From Aquipuribacter sp. SD81 (GTDB lineage Bacteria; Actinomycetota; Actinomycetes; Actinomycetales; JBBAYJ01), in NCBI RefSeq assembly GCF_037153975.1, contig NZ_JBBAYJ010000024.1, positions 1-62,477 of the forward strand: DNA of 62,477 bases, written 5' to 3'. Both the position numbers and the translations under genes were made by a program. Of this stretch, positions 41,134-44,329 are shown one piece after another. A model generated the notes under the pieces. It made no database searches, was not told the origin of the DNA, and saw nothing but the letters and a program-made list of their open reading frames with translations. Numbering within the stretch: the stretch's first letter is position 1; each line of letters begins with the position of its first letter.

Positions 41134-41676
41134 GTGCCGATCGAACCGGACACCAAGGACTGGACGTGGGTGCTGCGGCGCCCCTGCCCGGAGTGCGGCT
41201 TCGACGCCGCCCGCGTCGCGCCCGAGGAGGTGGCGGACCGGCTGCGTGCGGACCTTCCGGTCTGGCACGCGGTCGTGCTCAAGGACGGCGCCGCCGACCG
41301 GCCGGACGACGCCACGTGGTCGCCGCTGGAGTACGGCTGCCACGTGCGCGACCTGCACCGGGTGTACCGCGGCCGGGTCGAGCGCATGCTCGCGGAGGAC
41401 GACCCGCTGTACGACAACTGGGACCAGGACGCCACGGCGGTGCAGGAGCGCTACGCCGAGCAGGATCCCGCGGCCGTGGCCGAGGCGCTCGTCGCCGAGG
41501 GCGAGGCGACGGCCGCCGTGCTCGACGGCGTGCGCGGGCAGCAGTGGCAGCGACCGGGCCGCAGGGGAGACGGCGCCTCGTTCACGATCGACGGGCTCGC
41601 GCGCTACTACCTGCACGACGCGGTGCACCACCTCGTCGACGTGGGCGCCCGCAGCGCCTCACACGACCAGCCGTAG
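41134..41676 (+). CDS. DinB-family protein with Cys-x2-Cys N-terminus
   Basis: 180 aa. The N-terminal RPCPECGFD looks like a zinc knuckle half. Then a four-helix bundle with WSPLEYGCHVRDLHRVYRGRV and YLHDAVHHLVDVG; His in HVRD and the HDAVHH pair could form the metal triad of DinB/mycothiol transferases. GTG at 41134 follows CATGCT by 6 nt (leaderless type). Its end overlaps the convergent NAD kinase-like gene by 18 bp. Likely a thiol S-transferase or hydrolase, not a DNA damage gene as such. Confidence 0.82.
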   Translation: MPIEPDTKDWTWVLRRPCPECGFDAARVAPEEVADRLRADLPVWHAVVLKDGAADRPDDATWSPLEYGCHVRDLHRVYRGRVERMLAEDDPLYDNWDQDATAVQERYAEQDPAAVAEALVAEGEATAAVLDGVRGQQWQRPGRRGDGASFTIDGLARYYLHDAVHHLVDVGARSASHDQP

Positions 41677-42558
41677 CCGCCGCCTCGAGACCGTCAGGTC
41701 GACCGCCTGCCCCCAGGTGGCGGTCAGCCGGTCCGCCTCCAGGCCGTCGCCGAAGGCGACGAGCGCGTCGGAGCGGACGACGACGCGCAGCGCCGCGTCG
41801 GGCGGCAGCACGCCGGCCGTCAGGTCGGTGCCGGTGGTGGGGGAGGGCCACGCCTCGCGCACGAACCACGCGAGGTCGCTGCTGCCGGTGCCCGGGAGCA
41901 CCAGGCCGCCGCGCTCGCGCGCCACGGAGGCCGCCCACCCCGTGCTGCCGGTGCCGGTCGTGACGAGCAGGCCCGACGACGACTGCGCCTCGACCCGGCC
42001 GTCCGGCACGTGCAGCTCCCAGCGCGCCGACTGGTGGCTCGCGTGACCGACGTAGACGTCGTTGAGCGCCTCGACCGCGCTGCCGTCGTCGAGCTCGGCC
42101 CGCACGAGCGCGCGCGGCTCCACCCGGGCGCCCCCGCGCACGACCGCCTCGAGCAGGGCCGGCACGGCCCGCACCCGGTGGCGGACGAGCGCGCCCACGT
42201 TGCGGCCGGGCTCCGGGTCGACGCCGATGACCGCCTGGTCCCGCAGGTACTTCGCGACGTTCGCGACCAGCCCGTCCTGACCGACCACGACGCACACGTC
42301 CTCGGCCTCGAAGGCGAAGCGGTGCAGGTCCTGCCGCTCCACGGACCCGCGGCGCCAGTCCGCCGGGACGGACGCGCTCACCGCCGCGAGCGCCTCCCCG
42401 AGCGCGTCGTGGCGGGCCTGCGCCTCGGCGATCGACCGGCCCCGGCTGCGGAGGAAGAACTCGGCCTGCCCCCGGGTGCCGTGCCGGTCGACGAGCTCCT
42501 CGAGCTCGGTCGCCCGGTGCACGACGACGACGCGCGGCGCGAGGGCCACCTCACTCAC
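41659..42558 (-). CDS. NAD kinase-like protein
   Basis: 299 aa. Seen: NDVYVGHASHQSARWELHV and SSGLLVTTGTGSTGWAASVARE, matching the NDxxxxxxxxxR and TxTGSTAY signatures of ATP-NAD kinases. The usual GGDG loop reads VGQDG near residue 94, so this is a divergent branch; it keeps the catalytic Asp. It would make NADP from NAD. Its start overlaps the stop of the SPFH gene (GTGAGTGA), so they are coupled. Being under an NrtR-type regulator fits NAD metabolism. GTG 42561 is an equal alternative start. Confidence 0.82.
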   Translation of the reverse strand: MSEVALAPRVVVVHRATELEELVDRHGTRGQAEFFLRSRGRSIAEAQARHDALGEALAAVSASVPADWRRGSVERQDLHRFAFEAEDVCVVVGQDGLVANVAKYLRDQAVIGVDPEPGRNVGALVRHRVRAVPALLEAVVRGGARVEPRALVRAELDDGSAVEALNDVYVGHASHQSARWELHVPDGRVEAQSSSGLLVTTGTGSTGWAASVARERGGLVLPGTGSSDLAWFVREAWPSPTTGTDLTAGVLPPDAALRVVVRSDALVAFGDGLEADRLTATWGQAVDLTVSRRRLRLVV

Positions 42559-43555
42559 CACCCCGGGCGGTGAGGCCCGCGAGGGCGCCGGTGAGGAGGT
42601 CCGGGGTCACGGTCAGCTGCCCGACGCTCGGCAGGTGCGCGGCGAGGTCGCGCAGGGCGAGCGCCCGCAGCACCTCGACGGGCACGGTGACGTTGGCCGC
42701 GAGGCGGGCCGCCTCGGCGGCGCCGTCCGCCTCGCCCCGGAGCCGGGTGGCCTCGGCGGCGGCCTGCGCGAGGACGGTGTCGCGCTCGGCGGCCGCTCTC
42801 GCCTCGACGAGCCGTGCGGCCGCCGCCTCCTCCGCCCGGGCCCGCGCGTTGGCCCCCTCCTGCGCGACGAGGCGCTCCTCGCGCACGGCGAGCTCGATGC
42901 GGGTCGCGAGCTCGTTCTCCGCGATGGCGCGCTCGCGCTCGACGGCCAGCGCCCGGCGCTCGAAGGTCGAGCGGTCGGCGTCGGCCTGCGCCGCCTCCCT
43001 CGCGGGTGTCTGCAGCGCGCACTCGAGGTCGGCGTCGGCGCGGACGGACCGGACGCGCACCGCGAGGACGTCGAGCCCCGTCGCGGCCACCCGGGCGTCG
43101 GTGCGCAGAGCGGCCGTCACCTGGGCCGAGAGCGCCCCGGTGCCGGCGGACACCGCCGCCCTCAGCGTGAGGCCAGCGAGGGCGTCGGTGACGTGCCCGG
43201 TCGCGAGCTCCCCGAGCAGCTGGGCGACGTGCTCGAGCGGGGCGGCGGTCCAGCGCCCCGTCGCGGGGTCGATGCCGAAGTCGAGGCGCTGGGCCGCGGT
43301 CTCCGGGTCGGCCACCCGGAAGCTGACGGTCACCTGCACCGTCACCTCCTGCAGGTCCGAGGTTCGCGCCCGTGCGACGAGCGGCAGCTCGCGGTCGTCG
43401 ACGGGCACCTCGGACAGCACGGCGTCCAGGGGTCGGAACCAGAAGGCCAGGCCGGGGCCCGTGCGGCGCACGCGGCCGCCGCTCATCTGGACGACGTGCG
43501 CCGTCGGGGCGGCGCGCAGGTGCCGCAGGAACGGGTAGCGGGTGATCGTGGCCAT
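42551..43555 (-). CDS. SPFH/Band 7 domain protein
   Basis: 334 aa. The SPFH core runs over about residues 10-180 (LAFWFRPLDAVLSEVPVDDRELPLV, VTVQVTVSFRVADPETAAQRL). It is followed by a long Ala/Glu/Arg coiled coil at about 180-285 and a short C-terminal domain. There is no clear N-terminal membrane helix, so it may be a soluble or peripheral scaffold. ATG with AAAAGGAGG 6 nt upstream, the best site in this unit. It precedes a NAD kinase-like gene and diverges from an NrtR-type regulator; a link of SPFH scaffolds to NAD metabolism is inference from this context. Confidence 0.88.
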   Translation of the reverse strand: MATITRYPFLRHLRAAPTAHVVQMSGGRVRRTGPGLAFWFRPLDAVLSEVPVDDRELPLVARARTSDLQEVTVQVTVSFRVADPETAAQRLDFGIDPATGRWTAAPLEHVAQLLGELATGHVTDALAGLTLRAAVSAGTGALSAQVTAALRTDARVAATGLDVLAVRVRSVRADADLECALQTPAREAAQADADRSTFERRALAVERERAIAENELATRIELAVREERLVAQEGANARARAEEAAAARLVEARAAAERDTVLAQAAAEATRLRGEADGAAEAARLAANVTVPVEVLRALALRDLAAHLPSVGQLTVTPDLLTGALAGLTARGGE

Positions 43556-43570: not shown

Positions 43571-43585
43571 TCGTCTGTTCGACGA
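43571..43585. promoter_or_regulatory. NrtR operator site 1 (over SPFH -10)
   Basis: TCGTC-TGTTC-GACGA, a perfect 5-bp inverted repeat with 5-nt spacer. It overlaps the probable -10 element of the SPFH promoter on the minus strand (TATCGT, 43587-43582). It has exactly the same architecture as site 2, 34 bp away centre to centre. Confidence 0.65.
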
Positions 43586-43611
43586 TAAACCCGCTGACTA
43601 GTTGTCGTCAA
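43582..43611 (-). promoter_or_regulatory. Promoter of SPFH - NAD kinase operon
   Basis: On the minus strand TTGACG (43611-43606) and TATCGT (43587-43582) are 18 nt apart. Transcription would start about 20 nt before the SPFH ATG, leaving room for the AAAAGGAGG site. Both elements are touched by the two TCGTC-N5-GACGA palindromes. Confidence 0.6.
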
Positions 43612-43619
43612 GGTGACGA
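43605..43619. promoter_or_regulatory. NrtR operator site 2 (over SPFH -35, next to nrtR -10)
   Basis: TCGTC-AAGGT-GACGA, the same arms and spacing as site 1. It covers the TTGACG -35 of the SPFH promoter and ends 2 nt before TATGGT (43622-43627), the probable -10 of the divergent regulator gene. A dimer bound here could shut both directions. Confidence 0.68.
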
Positions 43620-43633
43620 GATATGGTGGTGGT

Positions 43634-44329
43634 GTGCCGGCCGCCGAGCTCGACCACCCGCCCTTCGCCGTGACGGTCGACCTGGTGGTCCTCACCCTGC
43701 GCGCGGGCCGGCTCGTGGTGCTGCTGGTCGAGCGCGGCGAGGAGCCCTTCCTCGGCGAGCACGCCCTCCCCGGCGGTTTCGTCCGGCCCGACGAGGACCT
43801 CGACGCCGCGGCGGCCCGTGAGCTCGCGGAGGAGACGGGCCTCACCGGCGTGCCCGGCCACCTCGAGCAGCTGCGCACCTACGGCGACGTGCACCGCGAC
43901 CCGCGCATGCGCACGGTCTCGGTCGCCCATCTCGCCCTTGCCCCCGGGCTCCCCGACCCCCGGGCCGGCACGGACGCCGCGGCCGCGGCGTGGGTGCCGG
44001 TCGAGGCCGCGAGGTCCCGGCCGCTGGCCTTCGACCACGCGCGCATCCTCGACGACGGGCTGGAGCGCGCCCGCGGCAAGCTGGAGTACACGAACCTCGC
44101 CACCGCGTTCTGCCCGCCGGAGTTCACCGTCAGCGAGCTGCGGTCCGTGTACGAGGCGGTGTGGGGTCGGGAGATCGACCCCCGCAACTTCCACCGGAAG
44201 GTGAGCGGCACCCCGGGCCTGCTGGCCGACACCGGCCGGACGCGGGCGGTCGGCCGGGGCAGGCCCGCGGCGCTGTTCCGCGCGGGCCCCGCCACGACCC
44301 TGCACCCCCCGCTCGTGCGCGACGCCTGA
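43634..44329 (+). CDS. NrtR-type Nudix transcriptional regulator
   Basis: 231 aa. N-terminal Nudix domain with a complete box, GFVRPDEDLDAAAARELAEETGL (GX5EX7REUXEEXGU), so ADP-ribose hydrolysis may be retained. The C-terminal winged helix has the NrtR pattern EFTVSELRSVYEAVWGREIDPRNFHRKV. Family knowledge: NrtR represses NAD synthesis genes and is released by ADP-ribose or NAD. TATGGT at 43622 is 6 nt before GTG 43634, so a leaderless start is chosen over GTG 43613. Divergent from the SPFH - NAD kinase operon with two operators between. Confidence 0.9.
   Translation: MPAAELDHPPFAVTVDLVVLTLRAGRLVVLLVERGEEPFLGEHALPGGFVRPDEDLDAAAARELAEETGLTGVPGHLEQLRTYGDVHRDPRMRTVSVAHLALAPGLPDPRAGTDAAAAAWVPVEAARSRPLAFDHARILDDGLERARGKLEYTNLATAFCPPEFTVSELRSVYEAVWGREIDPRNFHRKVSGTPGLLADTGRTRAVGRGRPAALFRAGPATTLHPPLVRDA

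Follow-up and report, generated by a model that had tools for sequence, protein, structure and literature searches.

The presence of two palindromes with identical arms between divergent genes for an NrtR-like Nudix regulator and an SPFH protein in Aquipuribacter sp. SD81 (NZ_JBBAYJ010000024.1; 62,477 nt, the whole stretch of DNA analysed and henceforth the window, in a genome of 3.86 Mb) raises the question of whether these palindromes are operators of the adjacent regulator, and of which genes and which signal it would connect. The data point to a dedicated NrtR-family autorepressor that probably blocks two promoters, its own and that of an operon encoding the SPFH protein and a NADK2-like kinase, and that is probably released by ADP-ribose. 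This proposal draws on the protein domains, the operators, their overlap with the promoter, their conservation and the single extended-operator locus in the SD81 genome, features from which we infer binding, repression, the effector, the enzyme activity and the SPFH-kinase association. The elements of the locus are as follows.

43571..43585, no strand assigned: operator site 1, TCGTC-N5-GACGA (TCGTCTGTTCGACGA), overlapping the SPFH -10; exact match, conserved pair
43605..43619, no strand assigned: operator site 2, TCGTC-N5-GACGA (TCGTCAAGGTGACGA), carrying the SPFH -35, just upstream of the regulator -10; exact match, conserved pair
43606..43611, minus strand: SPFH operon -35, TTGACG, assigned from sequence and conservation
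43582..43587, minus strand: SPFH operon -10, TATCGT, after an 18-bp spacer, assigned from sequence, with TAnnnT conserved
43622..43627, plus strand: putative regulator -10, TATGGT, assigned from sequence
43634..44329, plus strand: NrtR-like regulator, 231 amino acids, with a Nudix domain containing a full Nudix box (Pfam PF00293, 3e-22) and an NrtR winged helix (PF21906, 9e-16)
42551..43555, minus strand: SPFH/Band 7 protein, 334 amino acids, with a long coiled coil (PF01145, 1.4e-15; AlphaFold2 model; Foldseek)
41659..42561, minus strand: NADK2-like kinase, 300 amino acids (fold Z 25.3 to human mitochondrial NADK2; catalytic Asp kept)

Conservation of the twin operators and overlap with the promoter

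The initial annotation had described twin TCGTC-N5-GACGA palindromes with identical arms 34 bp apart, and both are indeed exact, with the 34 bp measured between their starts; they lie in the divergent gap between the regulator (plus strand) and the SPFH gene (minus strand), which overlaps the kinase-like gene by 11 nt. Their conservation in orthologous loci, on which that annotation hinged, was likewise observed. A scan of genome contigs returned 361 relatives of the kinase-like protein, and the best 80 of the 361 were retained. The SPFH gene precedes the kinase-like gene in 79 of these 80 loci, and in L008 the contig begins inside the kinase. The regulator is divergent to SPFH in 69 of them, two truncated by a contig end, which together with the window make up 70 loci spanning Cellulomonas, Micropruina, Arthrobacter and relatives, Nocardioides, Klenkia, Kineosporia, Glycomyces, mycobacteria and others; many are close relatives, and counts over them are not independent. 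With at most two mismatches allowed per site, the operator pair is present in all 70 loci with a divergent Nudix regulator, and the module is not peculiar to the Aquipuribacter genome. Total mismatches over the 20 positions of the pair were zero in 23 loci, one in 40, two in 2, three in 4 and four, the maximum, in 1, so that 63 of the 70 present no more than one. First-order shuffles of the same locus sequences contained the pair in 69 of 35,000 cases. The spacing between sites is 33/34 bp in 38 loci, 44/45 bp in 31 and 39 bp in 1.

All 70 named loci with a linked regulator contain the pair, compared with 3 of the 9 that lack one (Fisher p 3e-7, without correction for relatedness). The three latter cases were L011 (3 mismatches), L070 (4 mismatches) and L080 (exact). 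L046 was excluded from the nine regulator-free loci because its contig stops nearby; the pair is nevertheless visible in it. In another locus without a linked regulator (L069, Nocardioides speluncae), two diverged GTC/GAC-type palindromes can seemingly be made out by eye upstream of SPFH.

A lone TCGTC-N5-GACGA site is weak evidence in a GC-rich genome, and twin palindromes could conceivably be a chance outcome of GC-rich DNA abounding in TCGTC and GACGA. The SD81 genome contains 45 exact single sites (2 for the reversed pattern), and the window, in which sites 1 and 2 are the only exact matches, presents 23 matches with at most one mismatch, against 9.25 expected from shuffles. This explanation has a vanishingly small probability, and is ruled out by the conservation of the pair in 70/70 loci and by the reversed-pair control. 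Defined in the genome scan as two sites with 15-34 bases between them, the operator pair occurs once in the SD81 genome; among 394 genomes of the class, 56 contained the exact pair, one apiece, and none a reversed-pattern control pair. Fifty-four of the 56 exact pairs sit 1.0-1.3 kb upstream of a kinase-like gene. Another (G308) adjoins SPFH and regulator genes at a contig end (L108), and close to the last (G213; L100) no member of the trio is present.

The geometry of the promoter region is also as initially described. In the window, site 2 covers the SPFH -35 and site 1 covers most of the -10, and site 2 lies next to the regulator -10. On the SPFH strand, site 2 holds TTGACG or TTGACA in 70/70 loci, and a TAnnnT -10 follows 17-18 bp beyond the -35 in 68/70. 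Where the sites are 33/34 bp apart, site 1 and the -10 overlap, and the two operators themselves thus constitute the predicted promoter. With 44/45-bp spacing the -35/-10 spacer is still 17-18 bp, the -10 falls between the sites and site 1 is displaced by about one helical turn. The likely -10 of the regulator begins two bases past site 2 and 6 nt before its GTG start codon (43634), and because of this short distance the regulator transcript may be leaderless.

To delimit the module, stop-to-stop open reading frames of at least 120 amino acids, up to about 4 kb around the loci and the window, were clustered at E<=1e-20 and more than 120 bits, excluding pairs with at least 90% identity. The largest flank clusters comprise 11 down to 4 loci and, among the 14 largest clusters listed, each is limited to a single set of closely related organisms (Arthrobacter/Paenarthrobacter, Cellulomonas or Klenkia). 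A larger gene cluster was for this reason rejected, and the unit looks like three genes with no wider conserved cluster.

The regulator and the two proteins of the operon

The identification of the regulator as NrtR-like with a full Nudix box is borne out by its Nudix (79.5 bits, cut-off 21.1) and NrtR_WHD (58.2 bits, cut-off 27) domains, and it is the sole NrtR_WHD match in the SD81 genome. Its score against the NCBIfam equivalog model for ADP-ribose-responsive repressors (NF050029) is 134.3 bits, under the cut-off of 400, which marks it as a probable family relative and not an equivalog of that model. Its best solved relatives are BtAraR and SoNrtR. As in SoNrtR, MsNrtR and NdnR, a Nudix domain is joined to an NrtR winged helix, and a palindromic operator lies beside a divergent target. 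Here, in contrast, two operators are set on the -35 and -10, and the target comprises SPFH and NADK2-like genes and not NAD (nicotinamide adenine dinucleotide) synthesis or salvage. According to PMC6800001, MsNrtR is autoregulated, as is proposed here, the mycobacterial NrtR operator is GTTTTCGA-N7-TCGAAAAC, unlike TCGTC-N5-GACGA, and the MsNrtR Nudix box is degenerate, whereas it is intact in the window and in 68/70 orthologues overall. Tandem sites on one promoter have a parallel in BtAraR, an NrtR-family protein of Bacteroides (PMC4666351), but BtAraR senses L-arabinose and controls sugar genes.

For the kinase-like protein, an AlphaFold2 model built with 40 sequences (mean predicted local distance difference test score, pLDDT, 92.5) has human mitochondrial NADK2 as its nearest structural match (7r4l; Z 25.3 over 277 residues, 3.1 A, 25% identity), followed by canonical NAD kinases (Z 20-23). 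A profile search agrees, with NADK2 at 3.8e-17 and the next family member at 8e-9. Residues G94, D96, G97 and N167 are present in 40/40 sequences, and the catalytic Asp, the NE-motif Asn and the TGTG loop are retained, the first two as in canonical bacterial NAD kinases as well as NADK2 and the loop as in NADK2. Identity to the M. tuberculosis NAD kinase is about 21%, with GQDG in place of GGDG, and the conserved motifs HQsarY, LAWFVREAWPSP and FGDGxE are peculiar to this family. NCBIfam NAD kinase models match the protein far under their cut-offs, and a PF01513 search of the SD81 genome did not return its gene. That search identified two other genes, which, from their open reading frames, we take to be a canonical NAD kinase with a TlyA-like neighbour (L081) and a diacylglycerol-kinase-like gene (L082). 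Given that a PF01513 NAD kinase is encoded elsewhere, the kinase-like protein would be a second, divergent NAD kinase family member in this genome. In S. coelicolor and S. lividans, a single gene is annotated as NAD kinase, according to PMC8981147.

The SPFH protein matches PF01145 with 58.2 bits (cut-off 23.6), and its AlphaFold2 model (mean pLDDT 85.7; predicted template modelling score, pTM, 0.50) features a long coiled coil. Foldseek best matches are HflK/C, erlin, stomatin and flotillin, with which it shares the Band_7 domain and coiled coil; it differs from them in lacking an N-terminal membrane helix in the model and in the coupling of its gene to a NADK2-like gene. Major vault protein was also matched, further down the list than HflK/C, erlin and flotillin. 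A known defence system appears unlikely, as no PADLOC model matched the SPFH or kinase-like proteins at E<=0.01; a single PADLOC match, PDC-S07, was obtained for the regulator and is weak (E 0.0032). Carriage by phages was rejected, since tblastn with the kinase against 50,697 phage records gave no match at E<=1e-10.

Unlinked regulators, regulon size and plasmid relatives

The kinase-like gene was found in 65 of the 394 genomes. The exact pair is present in 54 of the 65, and a degraded pair, 34 bp apart with a total of 1-4 mismatches, in a further five (G027, G095, G355, G039, G340). Five have no pair at the promoter, and G224 was left unscored, its SPFH start not having been found. Four of those five belong to family f35 (G026, G115, G246, G350), in which the operon is present with no promoter pair and no close regulator (best 47-52% identity); the fifth is G152. 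A candidate pair in G115, obtained with a loose criterion, was discarded: it has 4 mismatches, and its sites occupy positions -181 and -137 relative to the SPFH start, hence off the promoter. In genus g37, probably Streptomyces, the operon retains the pair with no linked regulator in the loci retrieved, and the named Streptomyces and Kitasatospora loci (L191, L201 and L080) resemble this arrangement. In 23 of the 24 best unlinked g37 regulators retrieved, a single exact operator immediately precedes the start.

The extended site TTATCGTC-N5-GACGA was found at 38 places in 21 chosen genomes (manual count), 30 of which correspond to the operon or the regulator, and its reversed control matched once in the 21 genomes. 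Among 30 extended-site loci retrieved, 27 contain one or more genes of the trio and three (L230, L234, L248) contain none. In the SD81 genome the extended site occurs at this locus alone, and a wide regulon in it was rejected.

The eight extended sites elsewhere lie at G018:C1:439069 and 445508, G057:C1:6714362, G301:C1:6610221, G143:C14:849451 and C19:220324, G385:C1:7034414 and G059:C1:6011298; L230, L234 and L248 cover two of them, with none of the three genes there. Related NrtR-like regulators (about 60% identity; L206, L207, L213-L215 and L211, L216, L218) have different palindromes just upstream, by eye CTGTC-N5-GACA-like in one group and TCTCA/TGAGA-like in another, possibly reflecting further regulons.

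Kinase relatives were also detected in 57 plasmid records, of which 13 regions were inspected. Annotated copies of the divergent trio occur in Rhizobium (L189, L199), Providencia (L192), Methylomonas (L193) and Moraxella (L195), and was detected by sequence match in Cupriavidus (L197), Proteus (L198) and Acinetobacter (L196, with an interrupted SPFH frame). SPFH and kinase genes with no regulator match in the stretch were found in Roseomonas (L190), Treponema (L194), Streptomyces (L191) and Kitasatospora (L201); in L200, the SPFH gene is reduced to its C-terminal half beside a transposase gene. NrtR_WHD is present in the five plasmid trio regulators scanned. The Providencia regulator, 40% identical to that of the window and with a degenerate Nudix box, matches SoNrtR over its full length (E 1.7e-108). 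Read by eye and with a simple palindrome scan, the upstream palindromes differ: TGTC-N5-GACA-like in Providencia, Moraxella and Proteus, in Cupriavidus two palindromes of the GTTGTAC type at a distance of 23 bp, and in Treponema two of the AGTAGT/CTACT type at a distance of about 34 bp. Among the listed plasmid records with a named feature, kinase relatives are mostly designated 'sugar kinase' or 'hypothetical protein', with two designated 'ATP-NAD kinase PpnK-type protein'; the gene is poorly annotated.

Proposed mechanism, effector and novelty

In the proposed mechanism, dimers of the Nudix-winged-helix protein would bind both operators. The dimer at site 2 would cover the SPFH -35 and crowd the regulator's own -10, while that at site 1 would cover the SPFH -10 or, at 44-45 spacing, lie downstream of it by a few bases. 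The SPFH-kinase operon would thereby be closed to RNA polymerase and the regulator would limit its own level. A ligand, most likely ADP-ribose as a sign of NAD breakdown, would release the repressor, and SPFH and the overlapping NADK2-like gene would then be co-expressed, yielding a probable scaffold-associated enzyme that turns NAD or a close relative into its 2'-phosphate.

Several observations weigh against this reading. The many close relatives among the 70 loci weaken the conservation count. The protein initially described as an NADP-making kinase resembles a NAD kinase in its fold and in part of its motifs, but it matches no Pfam family at E<=0.01; the second G of GGDG is Q in 35/40 sequences, and the E of the NE motif is kept in 32/40 and replaced by D in 8/40, including the window. 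One of the 24 g37 regulators (L186) lacks an operator site, and G152 has unlinked regulators and an SPFH-kinase operon, yet no pair. G143 and G285 (g37) contain the regulator and its operator with no kinase match, and the persistence of both suggests that other targets may exist in these genomes. Close regulators (E<=1e-55) are found in 139 of the 394 genomes, against 65 with the kinase-like gene, indicating that the regulator family, as delimited by this search, is not confined to the SPFH-kinase target, and 8 of the 38 extended sites lie away from operon and regulator. With regard to the effector, SoNrtR has six named ADP-ribose contacts, among them Arg41 and Arg98 (PMC4666351). The alignment of the regulator with SoNrtR, from which residues were mapped, covers four of the six (Tyr10 and Phe15 fall outside), and two of these four differ, Asn43 and Lys76 being Glu36 and Glu67. 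Moreover, NdnR, an actinobacterial relative from Corynebacterium glutamicum, is reported in that source to respond to NAD.

These last two points favour an alternative in which repressor and operators act as proposed and the effector is an NAD(P)-type or other nucleotide, such as NAD or the kinase product, and so does the sensing of L-arabinose by another NrtR-family member (PMC4666351). We consider this possible, if unlikely. The Arg41 and Arg98 equivalents are Arg in 70/70 loci, and the Providencia trio regulator, which resembles the ADP-ribose-responsive SoNrtR closely along its entire length, retains Arg41, Asn43, Lys76 and Arg98 in our reading of the alignment. By analogy, ADP-ribose is the most likely effector. 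As initially suggested, the regulator may both hydrolyse and sense ADP-ribose. It might instead be chiefly an ADP-ribose pyrophosphatase and weakly a repressor, with signal hydrolysis as its main job, as the full Nudix box in 68/70 orthologues, unlike that of MsNrtR (PMC6800001), could suggest. This is rather improbable: operators are found in every linked locus examined and accompany the unlinked regulator, and five Proteobacteria trio regulators have degenerate Nudix boxes (RKLKEKTG, RVLKEKTG), from which it appears that hydrolysis is not essential to the module everywhere. We favour an autorepressor probably released by ADP-ribose.

A broader and more tentative reading sees in the trio a hitherto undescribed NAD-stress response that has spread horizontally, reaching from the Actinobacteria as far as the Proteobacteria and, in a form with no regulator linked to it, a spirochaete. 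ADP-ribose would lift the NrtR repressor, the SPFH scaffold with its NADK2-like enzyme would make NADP from the remaining NAD at or near the membrane, and the regulator would take on new operator sequences from lineage to lineage but retain at least two sites on the one promoter. The NrtR mechanism is already known; the apparent novelty lies in its target, in an operator pair that serves as promoter and in the occurrence of the trio across phyla. Among the matches listed in a literature search, judged by their titles and the openings of their abstracts, no description of an NrtR-SPFH-NAD kinase unit, of such an operator pair or of the cross-phylum trio was found; RegPrecise and the founding NrtR paper (Rodionov 2008) fell outside this search, and an earlier listing there is possible.

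This compact module combines a clear switch and a predicted metabolite signal with two effector genes. Should its enzyme produce NADP, many actinobacteria would possess a second source of NADP, possibly under ADP-ribose control and linked to an SPFH scaffold. The arrangement of operators as promoter, with the same sequence in Actinobacteria and other palindromes elsewhere, also provides a good case of regulator-operator co-evolution.

In four plasmid records, from Moraxella (L195), Acinetobacter (L196), Proteus (L198) and an uncultured host (L200), tetracycline-efflux genes, tet(H) or tet(J), neighbour the kinase-like gene; in the first three the regulator is adjacent to it as well.
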